DNA from: Sulfobacillus benefaciens
GTDB taxonomy: Bacteria > Bacillota > Sulfobacillia > Sulfobacillales > Sulfobacillaceae
Direction: 5' to 3'
Length of the DNA: 58,415 nucleotides
Assembly (NCBI GenBank): GCA_003023725.1
Contig: PXYT01000019.1
Coordinates: 20,245 to 78,659 of the forward strand
A program made the position numbers and the translations under genes. Positions 3,326 through 22,208 of this stretch are shown piece by piece. Under the pieces are notes generated by a model. That model was not told where the DNA came from. It made no database searches and saw only the letters and a program-made list of their open reading frames with translations. How positions within the stretch are numbered: the first letter of the stretch is position 1; every line of letters starts with the position of its first letter.

Positions 3326-3578
3326 ATGGAGACGTTTTACCCACAGAGCCCGATGGCTAAAACCCCTCTTTTCAACGGATGAACAGTTCGATACGGTGTA
3401 GTCGCTTTGGGATCGAATCACGGCGTCTGCCGAACAACTTCCGGTTTGCGAGTGGCATAAAACCGTCATCCGGCAATGTCTTCAAGAGCTCAGGGCAGAT
3501 GGTGAGGGCATGGTTAATTGGACTCCGGTGCGTGATAAAATCGCCCGTGATTCACATAAACGGGAAAGGGGGGCATAA
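3326..3578 (+). pseudogene. Decayed small gene of about 85 codons
   Basis: An ATG at 3326 opens METFYPQSPMAKTP. A one-base shift is then needed to continue as LFSTDEQFDT, followed by an in-frame TAG at 3399-3401. After it comes a clearly protein-like stretch (SLWDRITASAEQLPVCEWHK, then helical sequence with QCLQELRADGEG and WTPVRDKIARD) ending at a TAA at 3576-3578. The composition suggests a small helical protein. One frameshift plus one nonsense codon make it a pseudogene. Family unknown. Confidence 0.35.
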
Positions 3579-4923: not shown

Positions 4924-5204
4924 ATGAACCTGCTTAGCTGGACGCAAAAATTTGGAACGGATGCCGCGTGTCGCGAGTATTGGTTTGATCAGTGATAGCC
5001 GCACGGGTTTGTCGATTTGTCCACCAACAGCATCAGCGTCGACAAGCCGCCATCAATAGCCCCCAGACGGCCTACTGGGACTCAAATCTCGCATTACCTG
5101 AACGGTGACCCTATCCCCAGCAACTCCTGGATGAAAGAATTCCGCCCAATGGTCATGATTCACATCACATCGGGCGTTCTGAAAGAAAGTCCTTGGTGGT
5201 CATG
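4924..5204 (+). pseudogene. IS1595-type transposase remnant (N-terminal part)
   Basis: The start MNLLSWTQKFGTDAACREYW followed by a PHGF segment matches the beginning of IS1595-family transposases, where this region precedes a Cys-rich zinc ribbon. Two consecutive stop codons (TGA TAG) interrupt it right after the FDQ triplet. The continuation, readable only with frame changes, loses the cysteines and the catalytic DDN/D domain. No terminal inverted repeats were identified. It abuts the decayed TadE copy on the other strand. Confidence 0.45.
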
Positions 5205-5226
5205 AGAATGGCACCGTTCATCCCGA

Positions 5227-5754
5227 ACAGCCTCCCGGTTGTGTGAGATACATGATCCCTGTGGGTCGGAGGGGACGGCTGCGTCCATTGCGGCGTTTTC
5301 ACCATCATTTTGATAGATTTGGGCAATTTGCACCGTCGAAGAGAGTAATCCGGGAATGGGAATCAGCGGATGATAGGCATAGACCACTGTCATCACCACG
5401 TCATGTTGCTGCGGATTGGTGTCACTGCCTATGATTGCGGCATAGGTGATGACGGGCTTGGCTTGGGATCCCGTGCCGGTTGTCAACCAGGGGTGATTGC
5501 TGTTTAGTTGATCGTCCACGGCGCCATAGGCAGTCGGTGTCGTGCCAGCGGCCAGCTCTTTCGCCGAGTCTCCGGGACAACCCAGTGTATTCCCGATGGC
5601 GACTGTGCACACCTACTCGTACAGCCTGTTGCACCGCATCCACGGCATTGATATAAAAGCCGTAAATGATGGCAAAGAGCCGCAACACGACCGGCAAAAC
5701 TAATGCGGTTTCGATGAGAGCTTGGCCGGTGTTATGACTCCGATGCCGGGTCAT
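5227..5754 (-). pseudogene. Decayed TadE-like pseudopilin (paralogue of the gene at 21588)
   Basis: The minus strand carries a TadE start (HNTGQALIETALVLPVVLR, hydrophobic helix, INAVDAVQQAVRVG). After a frameshift near 5610 comes GNTLGCPGDSAKEL, followed by YGAVDDQLN, YAAIIGSDTNPQQ and YHPLIPIPGLL. Each piece aligns closely with the intact protein at 21588-22208. A second shift gives QMMVKTPQWTQPSPPT with an internal deletion relative to the intact copy. The ATG overlaps the stop of the TadG-like remnant (ATGA), the same junction as in the intact pair, so the duplication covered both genes. Confidence 0.75.
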
Positions 5755-6158: not shown

Positions 6159-6907
6159 AGGTCAACTGGGCGTTAAAGCAATCATCCATGACGCGTATTA
6201 CAGCCGGGTGCCTCCTCGATAACTGGGCATTCAAATGGAGCACCGTGTCGGCGAGCCGCCCTTAAGTCTGGTACATAAGCTCTATCAACGCGTCGATATC
6301 ACGCCTGACCGGAACAGACGTAAAAGGCGTGTTTGCCGACCGCTAGGTCTCCCCTCGGCACGCCGCGGCGCATGGCCTCCTGCTGACAGGGTGGTCATTT
6401 CGGTCACCTACAGCAATGCCTCACAATCGCACGTCCCGCAATAACTTCTCACGGCAACGTCACTCCGCCTGTTTTGTCCAATTAAAAGACGAACCGGAGA
6501 ACTGATGAGGGTTCTTTTGGTCCGTGGGATTGGCGCCATTCTGCCACTTCACGGCATTGAGGATACTCGCTGTCATTGGCATTGAACCGGCTCCTTCTTT
6601 AAATCTTTCCGTGGATGTCGAGGAAAAATCTCGGCAAGTAGCGGATATCCTAAAAATTCTGCAACAAGAAGTCAATGAAGTGTATTGTACTGGGTATACA
6701 GGGCGCCTGAATATGAGCCGGGCTTTGGAGGGAGATCCATATCGTCCCCCTTAATCTCCGTAAAGGATCGCTGGCGATCTCACCATCGGCACCTGGGGGT
6801 CACGGCCTGGCCCCCGTTTTGGCCTGGGAGGAAAAACCTACCTGAGCAGTCTCCATCTTTTTTGCCAACTAAGTAGAAACCAATTATCGGGTTACTTCCA
6901 CGGCAAG
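6159..6907. other. Gene-free stretch
   Basis: No supportable gene. A plus-strand segment near 6.57-6.70 kb (LNLSVDVEEKSRQVADILKI and following) is protein-like and helical but has no credible start or end, so it may be a fragment of another decayed gene. Confidence 0.35.
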
Positions 6908-7783
6908 TTAAGGTAATTGGTGTCGACTTGTAACGTTGAATTTTACGCAAATATTGCGAACATGCGTTTTGACGGTGTTGTATTCAATGTGACAATGCGA
7001 GGCAATTTCTGTCAGCGCTAAGCCCTCCTTTAAAAGACGATAAATTTCCTGTTCCCTTTTGGTTAATGCGCTTACCACAGATGTCACGCTATCGCGGTCA
7101 ATCTCGTCGGAAGTGTTAGGTGATTCGGAAGAGACCGTAAAATCCATGTAGTTGGTGCCAATAGCTTTTTCTTTTTTGGTTCCTGTCAAAAGACGTTCAG
7201 ACCAAAGATGATAAATCGGTAAACAGGCTACGAGTGCGACAATAATCATCCAAAATGATAATTCGGCAGGAGAAAAGGCAACATGTCTAACGGTTTTCTG
7301 ATACACCCACATATTCAGCAACAATAGTTCAGCAGCACCTAATCCAACTACTCCCCCCAAAACATCCCAATATAGAAGCCCTTCAAACGATAAAGCAGGC
7401 AACAAAGCAGGAGCGTTCGTGCTGAGGTTTGACGAAAATTGGATCAGCAGTAATCCCCACGTTAACGTATCGATAATCAACGTGCTGGCTAAAAGGATTT
7501 GGAAATATCGCCATTTTTTAATATATAAACCCAGCAGAAATAATGTGACCGTATACAGGCCGCCAAAGACTAATATCGGCCACGCCATAGAGGAATGAGA
7601 CTCGGGAAATTGCTCCGTGACCCATATGGCAAACAGCAAAATTGCTCCGCGGTAAAAGCCGACCGTAAAAAATCTTTGACGTTGGCGCATTAATGTTTGA
7701 ATAACAGACCATCTCCTCTTAGTTCTTGGTCTATGACGTACCGATCGCCATCCAAATTCAAGAATGCAAGGGGTTATCCCCAT
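6908..7783 (-). CDS. Membrane-anchored LuxR-type transcription regulator
   Basis: 291 residues. The N-terminal ~200 residues contain about six hydrophobic helices (for example FFTVGFYRGAILLFAIWV, VFGGLYTVTLFLLGLY, FWMIIVALVACLPIYHL). After a short acidic linker a classic LuxR-type HTH follows at about 240-291 (LTKREQEIYRLLKEGLALTE, then NTVKTHVRNICVKFNV). There is no receiver domain, so activity is probably set by the membrane domain, as in other membrane-bound one-component regulators. The start at 7783 lacks a good ribosome site and an internal start is possible. It diverges from the biosynthetic cluster starting at 8042, making it the likely cluster regulator (inference). Confidence 0.8.
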   Translation of the reverse strand: MGITPCILEFGWRSVRHRPRTKRRWSVIQTLMRQRQRFFTVGFYRGAILLFAIWVTEQFPESHSSMAWPILVFGGLYTVTLFLLGLYIKKWRYFQILLASTLIIDTLTWGLLLIQFSSNLSTNAPALLPALSFEGLLYWDVLGGVVGLGAAELLLLNMWVYQKTVRHVAFSPAELSFWMIIVALVACLPIYHLWSERLLTGTKKEKAIGTNYMDFTVSSESPNTSDEIDRDSVTSVVSALTKREQEIYRLLKEGLALTEIASHCHIEYNTVKTHVRNICVKFNVTSRHQLP

Positions 7784-8041
7784 GCATAATTAAGGATTAG
7801 TTCTGTGGAGCCACGATGAATTATGGTTTTTGTGGTCGCTTCTCTACTTAATCGCAAGCAAGGTCCATTCATATTTTACAAGAAAATTCTAGCTGTATCT
7901 GGAACATTTAGGAGATTAATCCCAAAAATCATCTCGGTTAGATGGAAAATCCTCCTTTCTAATTGGATATGTAAACCACTATGATTCGGGGCGAAAGCTG
8001 AAACAGACAATAGATGACAAAGAGGGGGTTCAAGAAATTTA
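7784..8041. promoter_or_regulatory. Divergent control region between regulator and biosynthetic cluster
   Basis: 258 AT-rich bases separate the LuxR-type gene from the acyl carrier protein gene; both transcription units must start here. An AGAGGGGG ribosome site lies before the ATG at 8042. I did not find an unambiguous -35/-10 pair or a clear symmetric operator. Confidence 0.45.
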
Positions 8042-8368
8042 ATGATGCCAAGTCAAGCGCAATTGGCAGAATCTCTGCTAGAAACATTAAGGCGGATGAA
8101 GCCCGAACAACAGAGTTTATCCGGCTGTACGCTTCTTCGTGATTTACAACTCGATTCTCTAGATTCGCTCGAATTGTTCTATTTGATGGAACGCTATATT
8201 CCGGAAGTGCGGGACAATGCGTTCAATGTTACTATTCCCCGTGATTGCAAGGTTCTCGAAACCGGTGTTGAAGCGACCAATTTACAAGATGTGTTCAACA
8301 AGGGGACGGTCAATGACCTTGTTAAGGTCATTGCCACGTTCACGATGCAACAACACCATGCTTCATGA
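8042..8368 (+). CDS. Acyl carrier protein, atypical
   Basis: 108 residues, longer than a typical 75-80-residue AcpP. The phosphopantetheine site is clear: LQLDSLDSLELF around residues 36-46, with Ser39 as the attachment residue. The surrounding helix II pattern (LELFYLMERYIPE) is that of carrier proteins. After an insertion-like middle part, the C-terminal helix (TVNDLVKVIATF) matches ACP helix IV. It overlaps the ketoacyl synthase gene by 11 bases and belongs to the cluster that ends with its own holo-ACP synthase at 15714. It presumably carries an acyl chain for that synthase rather than serving housekeeping fatty acid synthesis (inference). Confidence 0.85.
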   Translation: MMPSQAQLAESLLETLRRMKPEQQSLSGCTLLRDLQLDSLDSLELFYLMERYIPEVRDNAFNVTIPRDCKVLETGVEATNLQDVFNKGTVNDLVKVIATFTMQQHHAS

Positions 8369-9587
8369 AAGAAGCCCAAGAGCGGTTGTTATTACTGGCA
8401 TGGGAGCCATAACGGGCAGTGGATTGGGTGTCAAACCGTTGTGGCAGGACGTGATTAACGCTCGTTCGCGAATTACACGCGTGACGTTGGAAAAGCGTAC
8501 CTACTTGGGAGTACCCGCCTCATTGGACGACGAGTGTGTAGAGTGGTTTCGCAAAATTGGGCACTATGACCGTTATGCCGTCATGGGTTTTATTGCAGCC
8601 CAACTAGCTCTTCGTGATGCTGAATGGACGCAATGTTCTGAATCCACCGCATCTGCCGGCATCGTTATGGGTACTGGATTCGGCGCAATGGGGACTATTG
8701 AAAATACGCACCGAACTTTGTTCGAAGCCAAGCGCGATCGCGTTCGCCCTATGACCTTACCGTTAGCCATGTCAAATAGTGTTGGAGCGCTTATGGCCCA
8801 GTCTTTTCAATTTCACGGGCCGAATTTGATAATTTCTACGGCATGTTCATCATCTGCTCATGCAGTCGGCATTGGATCTCGTCTTATCGAACAGGGAATT
8901 TGCGATGCGGTGGTTGTGGGTGGCACTGACGCTCCGCTATTACAAGGAGTGTTCGCTAGTTGGGATGCACTGGGAGTTTTAGCCCCCGACCAAGAGCCAC
9001 CAACAGAAGGACTCCGACCCTTTGACCGCGACCGGCAAGGGGTGGTTCTGGGAGAAGGCGCCGGGGTAGTGGTATTGGAGGCATGGTCACATGCTCGCAA
9101 GCGCAATCGTTCTCCTTATGCCCTCATATGCGGATATGGTGCTTCGGCCGACGGCAAACACCTAACGCGTCCGGATTCTGCGGGCATGGCTTTAGCCATG
9201 ACGCGATGTTTGGCCAATGCACAGTGTCCACCTGACTTCGTCGATTATATTCAAGCTCATGGTACCGGCACTGTGGCCAATGACACTGTGGAATGCGAAG
9301 CGCTTGAGAGTGTTTTTGATGGGAGAACACCGCCCGTATCTTCATCAAAGCCCATCACGGGTCATACCATGGGTGCAGCGGGAATATTAGGGCTGATCAT
9401 AGCGATAATGAGCCTGGAGAAAAAGACTATCCCTCCCACAGCCAATCTTCGTTCGGTCGACCCTCAATGTCAAGGTGTGACACATGTTGTCAACCCGGTA
9501 GCAACTCCACTAAATAAAATTCTCGTGAATGCTTTTGGATTCGGCGGGAACAATGCCTCGTTGTTAATTGAATCGATACACAATTAA
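8358..9587 (+). CDS. Beta-ketoacyl-ACP synthase (FabF-like)
   Basis: 409 residues, usual FabF length. The Cys-His-His triad of decarboxylating condensing enzymes is present: TACSSSAHAVG (Cys163), YIQAHGTGTVANDT (His301) and KPITGHTMGAAG (His336), with the C-terminal NAFGFGGNNASLL loop. The start is the ATG at 8358 (MLHERSPRAVVITGMG), overlapping the ACP stop; the open frame extends further upstream only inside the ACP gene. It would condense malonyl-ACP with an acyl group. No ketoreductase, dehydratase or malonyltransferase lies nearby, so these steps must come from primary metabolism or be skipped. Chemistry is confident; pathway role is inferred. Confidence 0.9.
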   Translation: MLHERSPRAVVITGMGAITGSGLGVKPLWQDVINARSRITRVTLEKRTYLGVPASLDDECVEWFRKIGHYDRYAVMGFIAAQLALRDAEWTQCSESTASAGIVMGTGFGAMGTIENTHRTLFEAKRDRVRPMTLPLAMSNSVGALMAQSFQFHGPNLIISTACSSSAHAVGIGSRLIEQGICDAVVVGGTDAPLLQGVFASWDALGVLAPDQEPPTEGLRPFDRDRQGVVLGEGAGVVVLEAWSHARKRNRSPYALICGYGASADGKHLTRPDSAGMALAMTRCLANAQCPPDFVDYIQAHGTGTVANDTVECEALESVFDGRTPPVSSSKPITGHTMGAAGILGLIIAIMSLEKKTIPPTANLRSVDPQCQGVTHVVNPVATPLNKILVNAFGFGGNNASLLIESIHN

Positions 9588-9610
9588 CCGCAGCGAAAGG
9601 AGGTGAAGTC

Positions 9611-9670
9611 ATGGTGATAGAAGTGATTTCTGTAACCCACCGCAGCGAATTAGCGGATAAGTGTTGCTAA
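9611..9670 (+). CDS. 19-residue peptide ending in Cys-Cys, candidate precursor peptide
   Basis: The frame MVIEVISVTHRSELADKCC, 19 residues, starts at an ATG seven bases after AAAGGAGGTGA, one of the strongest ribosome sites in the window, and stops at TAA (9668-9670). It sits between the ketoacyl synthase and an E1-type adenylating enzyme, the place taken by mccA in microcin C operons. A perfect 10-bp hairpin follows it. The hydrophobic/acidic N-terminal half and the C-terminal pair of cysteines suit a leader and a modified end, but this is inference. Alternatives: a regulatory leader peptide or translational-coupling ORF. Too short for ordinary gene finders. Confidence 0.55.
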   Translation: MVIEVISVTHRSELADKCC

Positions 9671-9686
9671 GACTGTAAGTCGACGT

Positions 9687-9722
9687 GGAAGAGTGGCGGA
9701 TTTGTCCATCGTCCACTCTTCC
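9687..9722 (+). promoter_or_regulatory. Hairpin between peptide gene and E1 gene (attenuator-like)
   Basis: Arms GGAAGAGTGG (9687-9696) and CCACTCTTCC (9713-9722) pair perfectly over 10 bp around a 16-base loop. There is no long T-run, only CGTTCTTAATCTC after it, so it is better read as a partial terminator or RNA-stabilising hairpin. Such an element would raise peptide mRNA over enzyme mRNA. Confidence 0.55.
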
Positions 9723-9756
9723 CGTTCTTAATCTCAGAACAAAGGAGAGCAAACGG

Positions 9757-10851
9757 ATGGAACGGGTGAGTCTCCAGATGGGTACCAAGGTTTATCTTGA
9801 TGAATATAATGATCTTCACACCATTTCGTCTGCCATGGGCACGGTTAAACATCTCCGATGTTCTCCGGAGGTCGTAACATTGCTGCAACATGTTGACACA
9901 CCTCAAACGGCAAGGCATCTTTACACGATCTTACACTCTTATTACCCATTGCTATGTTTCGATGAGTTTATGACTCTTTTATCCCGACTGGCGGAAGAAG
10001 GTATTATCCGGTTAAATGACTTGCCTCCCGAACTGGCTCACAGTAGCTTCGCCCTCTTTCTCGAGGAACTGGCGCCTGCACAAGCAGAACACATTGTGCA
10101 CACACTACAAACAAGTACCGCCATCGTGATTGGTGTGGGAACTATTGGCGCAGCGGTTGCCACTCAACTTGCCCAATGCCGAGTTGGTCAACTGATCCTT
10201 ATTGACCCGGATCATGTTGAGGAAGGCAATTTAGAACGCCAATTTACCTATACTCGCAATGATATAGGCGTTCCCAAGGCTCTTGCTCTACAAAATTTTT
10301 TGCAGCGCCGAACCCCAACCCAAATTGTGCCTGTCCTAAAGAAGATTGAATCCAGCGCAGACCTCAAATCGATCCTACAACGTCTCGAAACTCTAGCGGT
10401 GATTGTCAATTGTGCAGATAGTCCGTCCGTTGATTATGTCGCGGGATGTATTGCTGAAGCCGTACATTGCACCACTCCTATTCCTTTTATTGCCGGTGGT
10501 GGTTATTCTGGACATTTGGGTTCTGTCGGCCCCACCTTTATCCCGGGTCAATCTATTTGCTGGCTGTGTTATCAACAACAAACACAGAACGCTCGACAAA
10601 TCCAGGACATGAGTCAGTGGCAATTGATTGCGTCTCGTCCGTTTACATCGACGTCCACGCATCCAGCTTTCGGGCCACTGGGAATTTTTATCTCCAGTCT
10701 TATGGCCAGCGAAGCGATATGGATTCTGACTGGATTAAAAGAACCCTTATTTTTGAATCGTCATGGAGAATGGGATTTATCTCAGGGCGCCATGATCTGG
10801 CGTGAGGTGAAAGCCAGTACTACCTGTCCACAGTGTCAGTCATTAATTTAA
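9757..10851 (+). CDS. E1-like (ThiF/MccB-type) adenylating enzyme
   Basis: 364 residues. Residues 1-115 form a small winged-helix-like domain of the kind that binds peptides in RiPP enzymes (inferred from position and pattern). The E1/ThiF Rossmann fold begins with IVIGVGTIGAAVA (122-134, GxGxxG at 126-131). It continues with LILIDPDHVEEGNLERQ (146-162) and VIVNCADSP (216-223), all standard ATP-binding and adenylation elements. Two CxxC pairs, CWLC (268-271) and CPQC (357-360), form the structural zinc site. There is no long Ubl-accepting catalytic domain, as in MccB. The ATG at 9757 has AAAGGAGA eight bases before it. It probably adenylates the C-terminal carboxylate of a peptide, plausibly the 19-mer just upstream. 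Stand-alone ThiF/MoeB sulfurylation is the alternative. Confidence 0.85.
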   Translation: MERVSLQMGTKVYLDEYNDLHTISSAMGTVKHLRCSPEVVTLLQHVDTPQTARHLYTILHSYYPLLCFDEFMTLLSRLAEEGIIRLNDLPPELAHSSFALFLEELAPAQAEHIVHTLQTSTAIVIGVGTIGAAVATQLAQCRVGQLILIDPDHVEEGNLERQFTYTRNDIGVPKALALQNFLQRRTPTQIVPVLKKIESSADLKSILQRLETLAVIVNCADSPSVDYVAGCIAEAVHCTTPIPFIAGGGYSGHLGSVGPTFIPGQSICWLCYQQQTQNARQIQDMSQWQLIASRPFTSTSTHPAFGPLGIFISSLMASEAIWILTGLKEPLFLNRHGEWDLSQGAMIWREVKASTTCPQCQSLI

Positions 10852-11160
10852 CGACAGACAGTATTAAGGGTATGTGTTCTCGGCAATTCTGTTCTTGGGT
10901 CGGTGAATTGCATGTGTTTCCCAGCCAATCGAACGGAGAAAAAGATGGTGGTTTCGGAACCGTGATGTTTTTAATCGTTTTACAGGATCGCAGAATTCCG
11001 GTCTGTGTCCCGATCGCAATGGATCTCGTTCGTCTGCCGACAATGTAGTTCCTTGATCTGCGAGTCCAGGTTCGCATATTTGGTGAACCTATCTGCATAC
11101 AAACAAAACGATAAATTGCTTGCACTCAAGATTGTGACCATCTCGTATGGAGGAGAGTAC
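10852..11160. other. Internal cluster gap with a weak small frame
   Basis: 309 bases between the E1 and GNAT genes, the only large gap in the cluster. A 71-codon frame from a GTG at 10833 to a TAG at 11048 overlaps the E1 end (internal MCSRQFCSWVGELHVF, late RIPVCVPIAMDLV). It has no convincing ribosome site and I do not call it. An AGGTTC...GAACCT inverted repeat at about 11069-11091 may be a regulatory site. Confidence 0.35.
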
Positions 11161-11727
11161 ATGATGATAGGGCGATTAGTGAGACTTTCTAGTTGGGAAA
11201 TCCCAGATGTTGATACGTATGTGAAATGGATTCAAAATCCCGAGATTGCGCGATTGACCCATATGGTAGGACGCCCGATATCACGACGAGAAATAGATGA
11301 AGAGTTCTCCCCATATTTTCGTGGACAATCAACCGTTCAACACTGGGCTATAATCGATCGCAAAACGAATGAACTCATTGGCAAAATACATTGGGAGGAA
11401 TGTTTGAAGGGACCCGATGTCTATGAATTGGGTATCGTCATCGGGGATTCCGAGCGCTGGCGCATTGGGTATGGAGCAGAAGCGTGCTTGTTGGCCGGAG
11501 AACTTCTATTCCGGGAACTCAAGGCGCACAAAGTGATGTATTTATGTGCAGAATACAATACCCCGATGATTGAATTGGGAATTCGAGGCGGCTTCAAGGA
11601 AGAAGGGCGTATCCGCGATCGTTTTTACGTAAATGGTCGCTACTGGGATGGAATTTGGTTGGGTTTGCTGAAAACTGAATATGACAGTTTTACCGAATAT
11701 CTCACTGCGCAATTAGGGAGGACCTAA
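11161..11727 (+). CDS. GNAT acyltransferase (RimJ/RimL-like)
   Basis: 188 residues from the ATG at 11161, chosen because GGAGGAGA lies just upstream; the frame stays open to 11005 but without a ribosome site. The order of elements is that of RimJ/RimL-type N-acetyltransferases: MIGRLVRLSSWEIPDVDTYV, HWAIIDRKTNELIGKI, YELGIVIGDSERWRIGYGAE (the acyl-CoA pyrophosphate loop, degenerate Q/RxxGxG/A), then YNTPMIELGIRGGFKEEG and a C-terminal RDRFYVNGRYWD. In microcin C clusters a GNAT domain (MccE) acylates the toxic moiety. Here it could transfer an acetyl or a longer acyl group to peptide or product (inference). The MMPL gene follows two bases later. Confidence 0.85.
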   Translation: MMIGRLVRLSSWEIPDVDTYVKWIQNPEIARLTHMVGRPISRREIDEEFSPYFRGQSTVQHWAIIDRKTNELIGKIHWEECLKGPDVYELGIVIGDSERWRIGYGAEACLLAGELLFRELKAHKVMYLCAEYNTPMIELGIRGGFKEEGRIRDRFYVNGRYWDGIWLGLLKTEYDSFTEYLTAQLGRT

Positions 11728-11729
11728 GG

Positions 11730-13883
11730 GTGGAATCATCAAATCTAACTGCGAGATGGCGTAGTGTGATGGCCATTCTTACGGTCATCGCATGGATTGT
11801 GGTTACGGGGTTCGGAGTGTTGGGATTCCAGACACTGAGTCAGAGCATTAACACCACTGGTCTCAATACCCCGGGCAGTGAGTCCGCCGCCTTCCAACAA
11901 ACCCTTCAGCGTGATTATCCCAAGGCGTCCGCGTTAGGCTTTGATGTCTTAGTCCATCACCATAACTCCCCCGTGACGCGATCAGCGATCAATGGCTTGA
12001 CAGAGGCCATCAGACATCAATTTTCTCAACTTATGAATATGGGAGTGCAAAATCACGGGAATTGGACGGTGAGTGCATGGTCGGAAAAGACGCATCATTT
12101 CGTGACGGCCCTGAAGACCTACAGCAGCATTTCGACATCGCTCCATAAAATCGTAGCGCATTTCGCTTCCGTAACCCATAGCCAGGTGTTCATTACTGGA
12201 ACTGTGCCCATGCAGTCCGCGTTTTCTCAGTTGGCCCTGCAAGACTTAATCCGCGCTGCCCGTTTTACGCTTCCACTGACACTCATTTTACTGCTTCTGG
12301 TCTTTCGATCACTATATAAAAGTTTTGCCGTGATTTTCAGTGCCACTACCGGCGCTCTCGTGGGTCTAGCTGGTTTGACACTATGGCCTGGAACCGTACC
12401 CATCACAAGTTTCACAGAACAAGCCGGTCTCATGATTGGACTCAGTGTCGGAATCGATTACGGTATGATGTGGCTGGCCTCACTCGCACGTCAAAGTCAA
12501 TCTGAACCCGTCGCGAACCGGTTTCGCCAAGCGAGAAAACGTGCGGTGCGCATGATCTTGCCAGCCGCTGCAATTGTCATCTTGGCTTTACTGACATTGA
12601 TGGAGTTTCATCAACCTTTGATCACGTCGATTGCATTGGGAATCGTTTTCTCGGTGGCGGGAAGTGCGCTAGCGAGTCTGAGTATATTACCGGCCATTTT
12701 ATGGTTGGGACGATCCCGATTGAGGACCGCAACAGCGGATCGCTCCACAAAAGTATTAACCACTGTACAAACGTTCCTATTGCGACGCCAGCGGACCGTG
12801 GGGGTAGCGCTTGTAGCGGTTCTCATAGGCATCGGCAGTTTGGTACCTGCAATTACTTTGTGGGAACCCGGCATCTCGACCCTACCGAAGAATTTGCCAG
12901 CCGTTCAAGGATTTCGTTCACTCCAGAGGCACTTTCCTTCTTATGCCGGCGCTCCCATCCAAATAGCTCTTTTTCCGCCAACCGGTGGCTGGGGTGGACA
13001 GATCTTGGCGTTCAAGCATACGGTCCAATGGATTACGAACATGCCGGCTGTGCAGCGTATTCAAGATCCGTTACCGCTCAATGAGTTATTGGGGAAATCC
13101 CGTACCGAACAGAATGCATGGATCCGTCATATTTTGGGATCGTCCACTCACCCGGTTATTTTAAATCTTTGGTCCATCGATGCAAACAGTAGTCCCCACA
13201 ATCTCAATCTCGTGCACCAATTGCGATCCCGGATTCGGGCCACACCTACTCCGTTTAGAATGCAAATTGGTGGAGGTGCGGCACAAGCGCACGATGCCGT
13301 GCGGCGTATATCAACATCGTTTTTAGGCGTGTTGGCCGCTGTGGCCATGATTACCATGATCGGACTGTTATGGCGTTTCCGTTCCGCGGTGATTGCTATT
13401 TCCTCCATTGTATTGAATGGGCTATCTACACTCGTTAGTCTGGGAGTCCTCGTAGCACTCTTTCAATTTCAGTGGGGACGTTGGATAGGCCTCCACACGG
13501 CTGGCGCCTTGCAATGGACAACACCCGTGTTGATATTTGCCATTCTCTTTGCTGTCGGAACGGATTATGAAATATTCTACGTGGAAGCTATTCAACACCA
13601 CCAACAACAAGAGAAACCGATGAAAACGGCGATTTTGCTAGCAACCAGAGAAACAGGAACACTGTTAAGCGGCGCCGCGATAATCATGGCCTCTGTGTTT
13701 ATGGCTTTTGGTCTCTCGGGTCTGGAATTTATGCAAGAACTAGGAATCGGACTGGCCATTGCCGTGCTCATTGATGCGACCATTATGCGCATGATGCTCG
13801 TGCCTAGTCTTCTTATGTTGTTTCAAGACCGAACCTGGTGGCCAGGGCGGCGCTCACACACTGACAGAGAGGTGATCAAATGA
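11730..13883 (+). CDS. MMPL/RND-family exporter
   Basis: 717 residues. Layout is typical of MMPL proteins: one N-terminal helix (MAILTVIAWIVVTGFGVLGF), a large external loop to about 180, and a block of five helices from 190. The block includes the signature GLSVGIDYGMMW (about 238-249). A central helix and second external loop follow, then a second block with the duplicate FAVGTDYEIFYVEA (about 608-621). MMPL exporters move lipids, siderophores and lipidated metabolites using the proton gradient, which suits an acylated product. GTG start, with GGGAGGA upstream spanning the GNAT stop; overlaps the next gene by four bases. Confidence 0.9.
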   Translation: MESSNLTARWRSVMAILTVIAWIVVTGFGVLGFQTLSQSINTTGLNTPGSESAAFQQTLQRDYPKASALGFDVLVHHHNSPVTRSAINGLTEAIRHQFSQLMNMGVQNHGNWTVSAWSEKTHHFVTALKTYSSISTSLHKIVAHFASVTHSQVFITGTVPMQSAFSQLALQDLIRAARFTLPLTLILLLLVFRSLYKSFAVIFSATTGALVGLAGLTLWPGTVPITSFTEQAGLMIGLSVGIDYGMMWLASLARQSQSEPVANRFRQARKRAVRMILPAAAIVILALLTLMEFHQPLITSIALGIVFSVAGSALASLSILPAILWLGRSRLRTATADRSTKVLTTVQTFLLRRQRTVGVALVAVLIGIGSLVPAITLWEPGISTLPKNLPAVQGFRSLQRHFPSYAGAPIQIALFPPTGGWGGQILAFKHTVQWITNMPAVQRIQDPLPLNELLGKSRTEQNAWIRHILGSSTHPVILNLWSIDANSSPHNLNLVHQLRSRIRATPTPFRMQIGGGAAQAHDAVRRISTSFLGVLAAVAMITMIGLLWRFRSAVIAISSIVLNGLSTLVSLGVLVALFQFQWGRWIGLHTAGALQWTTPVLIFAILFAVGTDYEIFYVEAIQHHQQQEKPMKTAILLATRETGTLLSGAAIIMASVFMAFGLSGLEFMQELGIGLAIAVLIDATIMRMMLVPSLLMLFQDRTWWPGRRSHTDREVIK

Positions 13884-14347
13884 ATATCCATCCTCTTACA
13901 TTCGTGATTTTAGGAATCGCATGTTTTCGCCTAACCCATTTATTGGTAGCAGAAGAGATTACCACCTTTCTCCGATCACCATTGGTGGATGCCGTTAATG
14001 AACCCGATGCTGCGGGACGTTGGATAAAGTTGCAGTATCCTAAACCCTCTCGTTTGCGTGGATTTCTGGGCGCGCTCATTAGCTGTCCATGGTGTACCGG
14101 GATTTGGGTGAGTACGGCATTTGTCGTGGGATGGGGCTTATTTCCCCACGTCGTTTTTCCGATTGCGGTCGTTTTTGCTGTGGCAGGGCTAGGGATATTC
14201 CTAGAAATGGCAACGCAATATTGGAGCCGAAATAGTTTTAGCCCCACGCCAAAACAAGTAGCCCGAATTAACACCATAAACAACCTACTAACTCAAACGA
14301 CGCCTGGTCAGCGGACCGACGAGAGGGACCAAGGTAGGATCTTATGA
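13880..14347 (+). CDS. DUF1360 membrane protein
   Basis: 155 residues. The N-terminal helix with FRLTHLLVAEEI, the middle segment SRLRGFLGALISCPWCTGIW (the CxWC motif that marks DUF1360) and a following hydrophobic helix pair identify the family. DUF1360 proteins are small membrane proteins known mainly from spore-forming Firmicutes, with no established biochemical role. Start and stop overlap its neighbours by four bases on each side (ATGA), so it is translationally coupled with both exporters. The CPWC pair could be redox-active or metal-binding (inference). Confidence 0.8.
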   Translation: MNIHPLTFVILGIACFRLTHLLVAEEITTFLRSPLVDAVNEPDAAGRWIKLQYPKPSRLRGFLGALISCPWCTGIWVSTAFVVGWGLFPHVVFPIAVVFAVAGLGIFLEMATQYWSRNSFSPTPKQVARINTINNLLTQTTPGQRTDERDQGRIL

Positions 14348-15699
14348 ACGATCGAAATACGGCCCTTATTGTAACGGGAGCCACGATTAGTGTAGCCCTC
14401 TCCGCGTTGGATGTGTCTATTACTACGATTGCCACCCCAACGATTATCAAAACTCTGCATGGTTCCCTCTCTCAAGTTTCGTGGGTATTTCTGGCTTATC
14501 TCGGGGCCGCGTTATTAGCATTGCCATGGAGTGGCATCTTCGCAGATCGCATACCCAGTCATCGCGTGCTAAGCATCGGATTGCTCACTTTCGGAGTAGG
14601 ATCCATTGGCTGTGCAGTTGCAGCATCCATGCCGATTTTCTTGATGTTTCGAGTAATTCAAGGAGTCGGCGGCGGCTGCCTAATGGCCTTGCCTATTATT
14701 ATCGTAGGTAAATTTTTTAAGCCATCAGAGCGTGCACGGTGGCAGGGAGTTCTGGCAGCGGGATACGGTATTGCAACATTAGTAGGACCTCCTTTGGGAG
14801 GATTTGTTACGGCAACTGCAGGATGGCCTTTCATTTTTGTGCTGAACATCCCTTTTGTTTTCATGGCCCTGTTAATGCTTAACCGTATTCATCTTCCTTT
14901 TCGGCCGACCACCTCAGAAGGACAATGGGTCAATATTCTCTTGTTTAATGCGGTGATTGGTTTGGTTCTCGTAGCCATTTACGAGTGGACTATCCGCTAT
15001 GGTCTAGCAGAAATAATCTTGGCTCTAGGATGCGCCCTGATATTTATCCGGCAGGCGCGAGACGGTCATAGTATGTTATGGCCTACTGGGGTCACTCAAA
15101 ATGTCGTTATTGTGAGTTTGGGTGTGATGGTGTTAATGGCAGCCGGTATAGAATCCGGTGCGATCTATGCCCCAATAATCTTTCAGCACGTGTTTCATGT
15201 AACACCGGTGGTAACGGGCCTCTTGTTAATCCCCATGTCATTAATTTCGATACTTGCCAGCTTGTGGAGTGGCAAGATCATGAGCAAAACCGGTATTTAC
15301 CGGCGGCTCTTGCTTTGGGCCGAAGTGAACATGGGCTTAGGATTTGGACTGGTCATGGTAGGATTGCAATTTCATACATTGACCATTGTGCTCTTGAGCA
15401 CAGTGGTCTTCGGGCTGGGACTAGGCTTACAACAACCCATTATTGCCGTAGTCGTCCAAGCGGTAACGCCCAAGGAATCTTTAGGGGCGATCTCATCCCT
15501 GTTACCGCTACTATGGAATGTCGGTGCATGGGTTGGTTTGTTGTTAACGACTATCGAATTCCGGGTATTTCCGGAGTCTCTAAGTTGGACCGTCGTATAT
15601 GGAGTAGCCCTATTAATGATCGTGATCGCCGCATGGATTTCGCTTCGATTACCACCACGGCGTTTACAAGAGTTTCAAGGTCTCGGAGTTTCCGAGTAG
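14344..15699 (+). CDS. MFS drug-type exporter (DHA2-like)
   Basis: 451 residues, many hydrophobic helices. SQVSWVFLAYLGAALLALPW in the first segments and the motif-A region GIFADRIPSHRV are typical, as is motif C in GYGIATLVGPPLGGFVTATA (antiporter motif). This places it with EmrB/QacA-type exporters; the length suggests 12-14 helices. Microcin C operons also carry an MFS exporter (MccC), so this gene may give export and self-immunity. Overlaps the DUF1360 gene by four bases; acpS follows after 14 bases with a strong ribosome site. Confidence 0.88.
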   Translation: MNDRNTALIVTGATISVALSALDVSITTIATPTIIKTLHGSLSQVSWVFLAYLGAALLALPWSGIFADRIPSHRVLSIGLLTFGVGSIGCAVAASMPIFLMFRVIQGVGGGCLMALPIIIVGKFFKPSERARWQGVLAAGYGIATLVGPPLGGFVTATAGWPFIFVLNIPFVFMALLMLNRIHLPFRPTTSEGQWVNILLFNAVIGLVLVAIYEWTIRYGLAEIILALGCALIFIRQARDGHSMLWPTGVTQNVVIVSLGVMVLMAAGIESGAIYAPIIFQHVFHVTPVVTGLLLIPMSLISILASLWSGKIMSKTGIYRRLLLWAEVNMGLGFGLVMVGLQFHTLTIVLLSTVVFGLGLGLQQPIIAVVVQAVTPKESLGAISSLLPLLWNVGAWVGLLLTTIEFRVFPESLSWTVVYGVALLMIVIAAWISLRLPPRRLQEFQGLGVSE

Positions 15700-15713
15700 G
15701 AAGGAGCATAATT

Positions 15714-16058
15714 ATGATCGGCATTGATGTCGTCGATATTGCCCGATTTCAACGTATATACCAAGACAAAGCCCTATTATTCGCCTTGTTTACCGATGAC
15801 GAAATTATTTACCTTCGTTCGCGTCAATTCCCTGAAGCCAGCGCTGCAGGAATGTTTGCCGCCAAAGAAGCTTATTGTAAGGCCATTCAACGCCCATTAA
15901 CGTTATCCGCAATCAAGAACATTGAAATTGAGCATGCCTCAGATGGACGCCCCATACTGCAAGCGGATCAGACTTCAACGTGCTTTTCAACCAAGCACCC
16001 ACATCTGTCCATCTCTCATACACAAGGGGTTGCCCTAGCCGTTGTGGCACTTCAATAG
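15714..16058 (+). CDS. acpS: Holo-ACP synthase (AcpS-type phosphopantetheinyl transferase)
   Basis: 114 residues, usual AcpS size. MIGIDVVDIARFQRIY at the N-terminus carries the Mg-binding Asp, FAAKEAYCKAI the Glu/Lys motif, and HLSISHTQGVALAVVAL the C-terminal motif. It transfers the phosphopantetheine arm of CoA to a carrier-protein serine, here most likely Ser39 of the cluster ACP. The ATG at 15714 has GGAAGGAG nine bases upstream; longer readings run back into the MFS gene. As the last cluster gene it may be a second, dedicated copy (whether the genome has another cannot be seen). Confidence 0.92.
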   Translation: MIGIDVVDIARFQRIYQDKALLFALFTDDEIIYLRSRQFPEASAAGMFAAKEAYCKAIQRPLTLSAIKNIEIEHASDGRPILQADQTSTCFSTKHPHLSISHTQGVALAVVALQ

Positions 16059-16362
16059 ATACTATGATGATCAGCCCCAACAGTCACATCCTCGTGGGAT
16101 ATACTCGAAACAAGCGTAGCACATACGAAGGAGCTGATCTATTGGTGTCACATTTCACTAGCGGACGTTTCCTAGTTAAGAGGCAAAATTGGCCTCAAAG
16201 GCTTGCACCGCCTCAAATTTGTGTTTATACAACAAAATTTGGGTTGCAGACGGGTTAGGTCAAAAAAATATTCCTTAAATTATCCCCCAAAAATGCCAAG
16301 GATTGTTGAGGGTTGATCGCGCACTACTGTTTATCAACCCATGGGACAGGAGGTGCGTCGAT
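16059..16362. other. Post-cluster intergenic region with weak hairpins
   Basis: No gene seen. A near-palindrome around 16216-16243 (CAAATTT...AAATTTG) could act as a weak terminator after acpS but has no T-run. Confidence 0.35.
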
Positions 16363-20377: not shown

Positions 20378-21591
20378 AACGGAAAAAATGGCCGCAGCGC
20401 ACCCGGAAGGCGTGGCAGCAAGGACAAGTGTTGCCGTTAGTCGCCTTGTTTCTCCCTCTGCTTATCGGAATGGCTGGGTTGGCTCTCACGGTGGGCACGG
20501 TGTATTTTGGTCAGGCTAAATTGCAAAATGCCGTAGATGCGGCGGCATTAGCGGGCGCTCAGGAGATGAATACCTCGGATCCGAATGCACCCGGGGATCA
20601 AGCAACCTTAGTGACACAAGATGATGCGAGTGCGACCCATGTTGTGGTGCAAACACAAACCGCTCCTCCGAACACGGTGCTGGCCCAAGCACAGGCCCAA
20701 GTGCCGGGAACGTTTGCCACCTTGTTCGGCATCAAAACTTTTACCGTCAAAGCTCGGGCCGTGGCTTCCTATGGGGCCGGCCAACCTTTTAATTACGCCG
20801 TCTTTCAGGGGGATCCCCGTGCAAGCGATCCTAAACTCCTCCTCAACGGTTCTACTGACGTTACTTCGTCTAGCGGTTCCGGCGCGAACGTGCATTCTAA
20901 CAACAAGGTTTATCTCAACGGCAATACAACGGTTGAAGGGTCGTGCGGCGGCAATCCGTCAGCGACATTGAACGGAAACGGCAGTTGTCGACAGGGGCTG
21001 ATTCAGAACGCCTCTGAAATCGCCATGCCGCAGTGGACGATTCCGCAGGCTACGCCTTCCGGTGCCACCATTATCGGATCTTCGTCCAATCCCAAAGGAC
21101 TGACGGTCAATGGCAACAATACCGTGAGCGGCAATTATGTCATTTACGGTACCTTGATTATTAATGGCAACTCCACGGTCACGGGTCATTATTTGGTGGA
21201 AGACGGCAGCGTCATTATCAACGGGAATGCCACGGTTCAAGGGTCGATTACGGTCTTCGGCGGCGGCATCTATTGTGGGGGAAACATCACCCAGTCCGGT
21301 GGGGGAACTCTGGCACTGGCCGCCTTCACGGCGAACCGGCAAACTGCTTCCGACGCGACCGCCGCGCAACCCGCCAATCCTCCGACGCCGGGCTCCATTG
21401 TCATGAATGGCAATGTGACCGTCAACAGCATTCTTTATGCGCCCGACAGTTATATTGACCTCAATGGCAACGTCACGGTGAACGGGGCCGTCGTGGGATA
21501 TCAGGACTGTCTTAATGGCAATGTGACCGTGGCGTACAACGCAGCCGAGACCACTGCCGTTCCGGTCAGACAGGTGGCGCTTATCCAATGA
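20374..21591 (+). CDS. TadG-like surface protein with NGN-repeat beta-helix-like domain
   Basis: 405 residues. A basic N-terminus (MKRKKWPQRTRKAW) and QGQVLPLVALFLPLLIGMAG with a Gly/Ala-rich helix (about 18-50), then KLQNAVDAAALAGAQE, are typical of TadG/Flp pilus-assembly proteins. From about 150 to 385 the external part is built from repeated x-N-G-N-(x)-T-V units (LNGNTTV, VNGNNTV, INGNSTV, INGNATV, MNGNVTV, LNGNVTV), spaced like turns of a parallel beta-helix or polymer-forming fold. It ends PVRQVALIQ. Translationally coupled to the M50-like gene before it and the TadE gene after it. A decayed copy of its C-terminus lies at 5751-6158. Confidence 0.8.
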   Translation: MKRKKWPQRTRKAWQQGQVLPLVALFLPLLIGMAGLALTVGTVYFGQAKLQNAVDAAALAGAQEMNTSDPNAPGDQATLVTQDDASATHVVVQTQTAPPNTVLAQAQAQVPGTFATLFGIKTFTVKARAVASYGAGQPFNYAVFQGDPRASDPKLLLNGSTDVTSSSGSGANVHSNNKVYLNGNTTVEGSCGGNPSATLNGNGSCRQGLIQNASEIAMPQWTIPQATPSGATIIGSSSNPKGLTVNGNNTVSGNYVIYGTLIINGNSTVTGHYLVEDGSVIINGNATVQGSITVFGGGIYCGGNITQSGGGTLALAAFTANRQTASDATAAQPANPPTPGSIVMNGNVTVNSILYAPDSYIDLNGNVTVNGAVVGYQDCLNGNVTVAYNAAETTAVPVRQVALIQ

Positions 21592-22208
21592 GAAATAACA
21601 CATGCACCAAGCGACTAAAATTCCGCGGAATAGGCGGCCAAGCCCTGGTCGAAACCGCCCTGGTATTGCCTTTGGTTTTGTTATTGCTGTTTGCCATTGT
21701 TTCCTACGGACTATACATTAATGCCGTCGATACCATCCAGCAGGCGGTTCGCGTGGGGGCCCGAACCGCAGCTATCGGAGACACCTTGGGATGCCCCGGA
21801 GACTCCGCCGCGACGCAATTATCTCAGGGTCACCATCCTACGGTGTACGGGGCCGTGGACGATCAGCTCAATCATGATAAACCGTGGCTGAGTACCGGGA
21901 GCGGAAGCACAGCCATCCCCGTGATTAGCTATGCCGCCATCATTGGCAACGACGCGAATCCCCAACAAAATAATGTGATTGTCACGGTCGCTTATTCCTA
22001 TCATCCGGTCATCCCTATTCCCGGCTTGCTGCCCAATCCCGTGGAGGTTGCGCAGACCTATCAAATGATGGTGGAAACGCCTCAGCCTTCCAATGGCACC
22101 ACGCCGACCATGCCCACCGGATCGCCCTATGAGGAAACGGCGCAATGGACTCAACCACCGCCTCCCACTGCAGGGGTAACCTATCTCATCCAGCCGGGAG
22201 GTTGCTGA
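21588..22208 (+). CDS. TadE-like pseudopilin
   Basis: 206 residues. GGQALVETALVLPLVLLLLF (about 14-33) is the TadE signature: a Glu-containing hydrophobic helix at the N-terminus. It is followed by INAVDTIQQAVRVGARTAA and an external domain with GDTLGCPGDSAATQLSQG, YAAIIGNDANPQQNN and a Pro-rich tail ending QPGGC. The start overlaps the TadG stop (ATGA). A frameshifted relative lies at 5227-5754. Expected in assembly of Tad-type pili or related secreted structures; the motor genes (tadA, tadB, tadC) are not in this window. Confidence 0.85.
   Translation: MRNNTCTKRLKFRGIGGQALVETALVLPLVLLLLFAIVSYGLYINAVDTIQQAVRVGARTAAIGDTLGCPGDSAATQLSQGHHPTVYGAVDDQLNHDKPWLSTGSGSTAIPVISYAAIIGNDANPQQNNVIVTVAYSYHPVIPIPGLLPNPVEVAQTYQMMVETPQPSNGTTPTMPTGSPYEETAQWTQPPPPTAGVTYLIQPGGC

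Follow-up and report, generated by a model that had tools for sequence, protein, structure and literature searches.

A 19-residue peptide encoded within a gene cluster of Sulfobacillus benefaciens is best explained, at a probability of about 0.5, as a RiPP precursor on which a ThiF-like E1 enzyme would act by thiol capture and whose product would be acylated and exported. The peptide, MVIEVISVTHRSELADKCC, is the translation of the open reading frame (ORF) at positions 9611-9670 (forward strand, stop codon included) of the analysed stretch of DNA, which is 58,415 nucleotides long and is referred to here as the window. That it is a precursor for the adjacent E1 enzyme, an adenylating enzyme of the MccB/PaaA type, is very likely, because the peptide is conserved in a second genome of the family (G020) and because a relative of the E1 enzyme in Lactiplantibacillus plantarum follows Cys-ended genes that also encode 19 residues. 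Putative acylation, which is suggested by the gene content, is somewhat favoured, and thiol capture in the form of a thiolactone or thioester is proposed tentatively, by analogy. The product would probably be an unstudied small molecule, cyclised and lipid-bearing.

The peptide gene and its cluster

An earlier note on this DNA had described a 19-residue peptide gene with a Lys-Cys-Cys end and a strong ribosome site, and translation confirms both length and end. The last residue is Cys and acidic residues stand shortly upstream of it (Glu13 and Asp16, followed by Lys17, Cys18 and Cys19). GGAGGTGA followed by ATG, GTG or TTG 0-8 bases downstream occurs a single time on both strands of the 58-kb window, at the peptide gene. 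The seven bases said to separate ribosome site and start hold for the GGAGG core, and not for the whole AAAGGAGGTGA motif, which ends 4 bases before the ATG. The gene had also been placed correctly between a ketoacyl synthase of the KAS II type and a ThiF/E1 protein. It forms part of a same-strand cluster with the order ACP, KAS, peptide, E1, GNAT, MMPL, DUF1360, MFS and PPTase, and a LuxR-type regulator is encoded in the opposite direction. In the following list of features, identities refer to the counterparts in G020, which belongs to the window's family and to a different genus.

6908-7783, reverse strand: divergent regulator, hydrophobic in its N-terminal part and with a LuxR-type HTH at the C-terminus (Pfam GerE 1.2e-13; 50.0% identity, same place)
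8042-8368, forward strand: divergent acyl carrier protein (ACP), 108 aa, with the site LDSLDSLELF (TIGR00517 E 0.0034, weak; 37.0% identity, Ser site kept)
8358-9587, forward strand, start at 8358 inferred: beta-ketoacyl-ACP synthase II-like protein (KAS) with TACSSS, HGTGT and GHTMGAAG motifs (Pfam 2.8e-38 and 2.7e-33; 53.6% identity)
9596-9606, forward strand: Shine-Dalgarno sequence AAAGGAGGTGA (sole GGAGGTGA-plus-start in the window; AAGGAGGTGAAATC at the equivalent place in G020)
9611-9670, forward strand: 19-residue peptide MVIEVISVTHRSELADKCC, very likely a precursor (ORF; conservation in G020; class-wide pattern search)
9682-9726, forward strand: predicted intercistronic RNA hairpin in the peptide-E1 gap (9671-9740 folds at -27.5 kcal/mol, z -3.78)
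9757-10851, forward strand: ThiF/E1 adenylating enzyme, 364 aa, MccB/PaaA-like (Pfam ThiF 3.1e-32; profile to MccB 9.5e-37 and to PaaA 1.1e-17; profile-profile alignment over 34-361; about 47.5% identity)
11161-11727, forward strand: GNAT acyltransferase, 188 aa (Pfam Acetyltransf_3 1.2e-16; 72.7% identity)
11730-13883, forward strand: MMPL/RND-type exporter, 717 aa (Pfam MMPL 2e-40; 48.5% identity)
13880-14347, forward strand: DUF1360 protein, 155 aa (Pfam 8.4e-30; 68.8% identity)
14344-15699, forward strand: MFS exporter, 451 aa (Pfam MFS_1 4e-47; 48.3% identity)
15714-16058, forward strand, start MIGIDVVDIARF at 15714: holo-ACP synthase / 4'-phosphopantetheinyl transferase (PPTase; Pfam ACPS 2.9e-13; 48.2% identity)

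The divergent ACP has no Pfam match, and the KAS is best matched by fabF-type fatty-acid models (NCBIfam/Pfam scan); its three motifs presumably contain the catalytic Cys, His and His in the order given. The GNAT is the best-conserved cluster protein between the window and G020. The E1 and GNAT genes are separated by 309 bases without an obvious gene (10852-11160), and the same two genes touch in G020. Elsewhere in the window, the reverse-strand ORF at 5160-5612 looks by eye like an incomplete duplicate of the protein encoded at 21588-22208 on the forward strand, with the stretches YGAVDDQLN and PIPGLL common to both.

Conservation and distribution of peptide and enzyme

Among 34 genomes of the family, G020 is the only other one with a full-length relative of the E1 enzyme (5.8e-107), and it carries counterparts of all ten cluster genes in the same order. 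The equivalent gap between its KAS and E1 genes encodes MVLEMVSIINRIELADKCC behind AAGGAGGTGAAATC (locus L015, 1366-1425). The two peptides are identical at 12 of 19 positions (63.2%) and differ at seven; the codons of the 12 unchanged residues have undergone five changes, all of them synonymous, and the score of the pair was equalled by 0 of 100,000 shuffles. In 154 genomes of the class the pattern LADKCC-stop matches only in these two, once each and both times at the peptide locus, with the reversed pattern serving as a control (a match in 1 of 154). The check for conservation in relatives that the earlier note had called for therefore finds the peptide kept beyond its ribosome site, and the presence of a conserved peptide in the equivalent gap supports the proposed pairing of a precursor-peptide gene with an MccB-like E1 enzyme. 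The G020 peptide also ends in Cys-Cys, and the distinction that had been drawn between this end and the Asn end of MccA is upheld as well.

The E1 and peptide-pattern searches found the cluster missing from the other seven genomes of the window's genus (one of them only 61% complete), which makes its distribution patchy and points to transfer or loss. The E1 profile matches 10 of 154 class genomes at E <= 1e-15, the close matches being those of the window's genome and G020, and only these two are matched at 1e-25 in an even sample of 398 genomes of the phylum. A search with the GNAT matched 4 of 154 class genomes, closely only in the same two, and the neighbourhoods of the next relatives (39% and 32%) contain no such cluster as judged from open-frame lists. 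Viral contigs yielded no E1 relative. With the close form in two genomes only, conservation is that of one pair and a distant plasmid relative. A contig scan with E1 alone produced 11 loci that were rejected as close relatives; the ORFs read there look like simple proteins of the ThiF type or have another ThiF fold, and they seem to lack this N-terminal part. In G020 a different E1 gene, accompanied by ABC-transporter-like genes, stands upstream of the syntenic cluster at a distance of about 11 kb from the cluster's own E1 gene (L044, 4411-6171 with 6191-9527).

The best solved relative of the E1 enzyme is MccB (9.5e-37 with a three-sequence profile, followed by ThiF at 1.8e-24 and PaaA at 1.1e-17). 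The GxGxxG motif and four zinc-type Cys (268, 271, 357, 360) are kept, and R161, K174 and D221, which are invariant in three aligned E1s, align with Arg, Lys and Asp of MccB. Their spacing is similar to that of Arg167, Lys180 and Asp225, given as key residues of EnfB in passages of PMC12250964, as a comparison of residue numbers shows. The N-terminal domain is probably a RiPP recognition element, because the profile-profile alignment to eight MccB-type enzymes covers residues 34-361 and runs into their N-terminal region. Residues 1-100 have no meaningful Pfam match, and the structure model, which had the window and contig loci as its only alignment input, is poor in this domain (mean pLDDT 56, block pLDDT about 32-54 there). 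A 19-row tree gives full support to the pair of window and G020, with L. plantarum next nearest by path and weak deeper placing (72/62), and the window E1 does not stand beside E. coli MccB. A supported clade of Cys-ended E1s was sought in this tree and not found (72/62).

The best full-length matches of the window E1 among 72,556 plasmids are on L. plantarum plasmids (27.7% over 99% of the query, 2e-29, tblastn), and the L. plantarum E1 used as query against the 398 phylum genomes returns the window E1 as best match (2.6e-41, residues 8-364) and that of G020 as second. On NZ_CP028335.1 (L060) two Cys-ended 19-residue genes, MEKVSEVKVLAHEEKNGSC and MKKVSEVKVLAHEEKNGSC, precede the E1 gene and an MFS gene follows it; the MFS protein encoded there is not closely similar to that of the window. 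By residue score, the L. plantarum peptides resemble the window peptide no more than chance would allow (51,163 of 100,000 shuffles do equally well), and Met1, Glu13 and Cys19 are the sole residues common to all three 19-mer types in a gap-free alignment. The putative link between these peptides is one of E1 homology, position, length and last residue. On other Lactiplantibacillus plasmids, what is left of this E1 is only its C-terminal part, close to an MFS gene, which gives these copies a decayed look (L099, 5052-5429; L100, 3995-4489).

When 900 bases upstream of 13 E1 loci were surveyed for small ORFs with a ribosome site, a Cys-ended one was found at four (L015, L060 with two copies, L101 and L016), the near-identical L. 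plantarum loci L101 and L060 being counted once. The other nine (L094, L095, L096, L097, L098, L061, L063, L062 and L044) have no Cys-ended or convincing peptide there, and nine further ThiF loci from the search of the 398 phylum genomes, taken without regard to strand, gave no candidate peptide. G014, a genome of the window's genus, encodes the 21-residue Cys-ended peptide MKIQVKKVEDVQTTCHVDQNC behind a strong ribosome site and before a 361-aa E1 (L046); at the position equivalent to Glu13 it has Cys, not Glu. Downstream of this E1 (L046, 1-3837; G014:C4) follow a 419-aa protein that Pfam does not match and a 387-aa protein that weakly matches M50 peptidases. Peptides at other E1 loci end in PR (Sporosarcina and a second G014 locus) or in N (Nonomuraea). 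Both PR-ended peptides are of 19 residues and precede ThiF-like enzymes (L094, 3771-3830, on a Sporosarcina plasmid; L047, 7773-7832, in G014) that pair in the tree with 100/98 support. A ThiF locus of G057 was rejected as the same system since its peptide is poly-Cys and of the heterocycle type: the 51-residue peptide, encoded just before a ThiF-like ORF, has eleven consecutive Cys (L112, reverse complement 3407-3562; G057:C24) and is presumably of the kind seen in heterocycle-containing peptides.

Hairpins were found in all four of the Cys-ended precursor-to-enzyme gaps that were folded, namely in the window, in G020 (z -4.02), in L. plantarum after the second peptide gene (z -7.90) and at L046 of G014 (z -3.75). 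Those of the window, G020 and L. plantarum have different sequences and occupy the same place, and for the stretch separating the two peptide genes of L. plantarum, folding is close to that of its shuffles (z -1.04). A hairpin behind a precursor gene commonly determines how much peptide is made relative to enzyme, and such a layout is usual in RiPP operons. The tandem Cys codons directly before the stop, with a strong hairpin beginning 11 bases past it, also provide an anatomy that would suit a cysteine-responsive attenuator, and this explanation is kept for that reason as a highly improbable one. Ribosomes would stall on the Cys codons when charged tRNA-Cys is low and thereby alter the downstream hairpin and the expression of E1, and cysteine-rich regulatory ORFs, likewise short and upstream of an operon gene, are known in mycobacteria according to passages of PMC9094748 (citing Canestrari 2020). 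However, the window ORF is conserved with synonymous changes at residues distant from its Cys codons, above all ELADK, and lies inside a biosynthetic operon beside a peptide-using enzyme, which would be left without a known substrate gene. In addition, neither the window nor the G020 hairpin has a U run after its stem, no terminator was called at 9682-9726, Rfam gave no match in 6800-16200, and the L. plantarum peptides carry one Cys each, in two copies.

Proposed chemistry at the cysteine end

ThiF-like peptide enzymes adenylate a carboxylate which is then attacked by differing nucleophiles, as described in passages of PMC12150305 and PMC12250964. The best precedent for the window system, by analogy, appears to be the GRC-type RiPP of Streptococcus pneumoniae, in which the ThiF-like GrcB joins the side chain of Glu35 in the 39-residue precursor GrcA to the terminal Cys39 as a thiolactone (passages of PMC12250964). 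The earlier note, which contrasted the Cys-Cys end with the Asn end of known MccB substrates, overlooked this Cys-ended precedent; its alternative idea of a sulfur or amino-acid carrier finds no support here.

With Glu13, Asp16 and two terminal Cys in the window peptide, a ring from side chain to thiol is the simplest reading. In the proposed mechanism, the N-terminal part of E1, as the probable RiPP recognition element, would bind the leader-like first half of the peptide. The enzyme with Mg-ATP would then adenylate a peptide carboxylate, most likely the side chain of Glu13 (or Asp16) and otherwise the C-terminal carboxylate, and the terminal cysteine thiol would capture it to form a thiolactone ring, as GrcB does on GrcA. 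The ACP, activated by the PPTase of the cluster, and the ketosynthase may make or present an acyl chain which the GNAT would attach to Lys17 or the N-terminus, and the product would be exported by the MMPL protein, the MFS protein or both, under control of the operon by the LuxR-type protein. A Pfam scan of the cluster proteins identified no protease for leader removal. That Glu13 and Cys19, the pair needed for a Glu-Cys thiolactone, are common to the three 19-mer types modestly supports such a ring; the i+6 spacing of these residues, as compared with i+4 in GrcA, speaks against a GrcA-like one.

Acylation is suggested by the presence of ACP, KAS, PPTase, GNAT and MMPL in one operon, and the MMPL exporter belongs to a family known for lipids. 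The L. plantarum locus instead has a divergent gene on a Gram-positive plasmid (L060, 5510-6379, reverse strand) with a weak lipid A acyltransferase match that narrowly misses the curated cut-off of 22.3 (score 21.9, E 0.00011); 2 of the 72,556 plasmid records carry this gene. Alternatively, the GNAT could be an acetyltransferase that serves in self-resistance and transfers no lipid.

Three other routes through the same enzyme are considered. Passages of PMC12250964 and PMC12150305 describe EnfB and IndF as activating the C-terminal carboxylate for attack by other nucleophiles, and in the same manner the window E1 might cyclise or amidate the peptide end through its C-terminal carboxylate and a non-thiol nucleophile, leaving the Cys residues to disulfide formation, metal binding or another role and making any acylation independent. 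This is unlikely, as the window peptide has none of the Trp/Ile motifs found in IndA and EnfA and shares only Met1, Glu13 and Cys19 with the L. plantarum 19-mers.

The gene order of microcin C is mccABC, which the L. plantarum order of peptide, E1 and MFS resembles, and together with MccB as best solved relative this would suit a peptide-nucleotide: once E1 had adenylated the C-terminal carboxylate, a nucleotide or phosphoramidate would stay on the Cys end. In MccA, however, the N-P link sits at the C-terminal Asn (passages of PMC12150305), and the precursors of the window, G020 and L. plantarum enzymes all end in Cys; Asn-type microcin C chemistry is therefore unlikely for the window peptide, and a peptide-nucleotide of this kind is rather doubtful altogether.

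A similarly doubtful and slightly less probable alternative takes account of the peptide gene lying between KAS and E1 in one operon with ACP and PPTase genes. E1 enzymes of other systems hand activated carboxylates to thiols, and with this precedent the window E1 could pass the adenylated peptide to the phosphopantetheine thiol of the ACP, after which the ketosynthase would condense it with an extender to give a hybrid of ribosomal peptide and polyketide or fatty acid. A ketosynthase would in that case act on a ribosomal peptide thioester. Against this, the Pfam scan of cluster proteins detected neither a ketoreductase nor an acyl-loading gene, the KAS is best matched by fabF-type models, and no ACP or KAS is annotated at the L. 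plantarum locus, so that a Cys end does not require them.

Relation to known systems

The preferred reading, thiol capture by E1 followed by acylation and export, makes the cluster a variant of the ThiF-like RiPPs. Two of the marks of these are found here, in that the ThiF/E1 domain has its Mg-ATP residues and a short precursor gene conserved between clusters lies beside the enzyme. The likeness to the GRC type consists of a Cys-ended short precursor, an upstream acidic residue, a ThiF-like enzyme and an exporter (passages of PMC12250964), GrcB and the window E1 being likened by description. The window precursor differs from GrcA in its 19 instead of 39 residues, its two Cys and a Glu-Cys spacing of 5-6 instead of 4. 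Pfam and NCBIfam scans of the 10 cluster proteins found no radical SAM enzyme, and the cluster has ACP, KAS, PPTase, GNAT and MMPL instead.

Like microcin C (MccA/MccB/MccC), the cluster combines a homologue of MccB with a short precursor gene directly upstream and an MFS gene, whereas its precursor is no heptapeptide and lacks the Asn end, and acyl machinery is present in addition. Pantocin A (PaaA), enterofaecin (EnfB) and the indolylamide RiPP (IndF) likewise pair a ThiF-like enzyme with a short encoded peptide, but their core motifs (Glu-Glu-Asn for pantocin, WWIVI and NWYFI) are missing from the window peptide. The lipidated RiPPs that depend on GNATs, namely goadvionins, lipolanthines, selidamides and lipoavitides, resemble the cluster in having a GNAT beside the precursor, to which the window adds ACP, KAS and PPTase in the operon. 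Some lipidated-RiPP clusters reportedly carry their own fatty-acid or polyketide genes, as Ren is said to have described in 2024. Lipidation of RiPPs by GNATs is known from passages of PMC9505594 and PMC13060382; the systems concerned are mostly of the lanthipeptide type, whereas the peptide enzyme of the window is ThiF-like and Pfam found no lanthionine synthetase in the cluster.

Searches of the open-access literature yielded neither Cys-Cys precursors nor a peptide cluster of the ThiF type that includes ACP and ketosynthase, and it is in the Cys-Cys end and the complete acyl-carrier set that this variant departs from the systems found there. The bonds that ThiF-like enzymes form on short peptides are of several unrelated kinds, and which one is made seems to depend on the peptide end and a nearby nucleophile. 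A 19-residue substrate with a single E1 constitutes a small and clean system that is amenable to in vitro testing, and it would widen the range of ThiF-like peptide chemistry to include the window's lineage and plasmids of Lactiplantibacillus.
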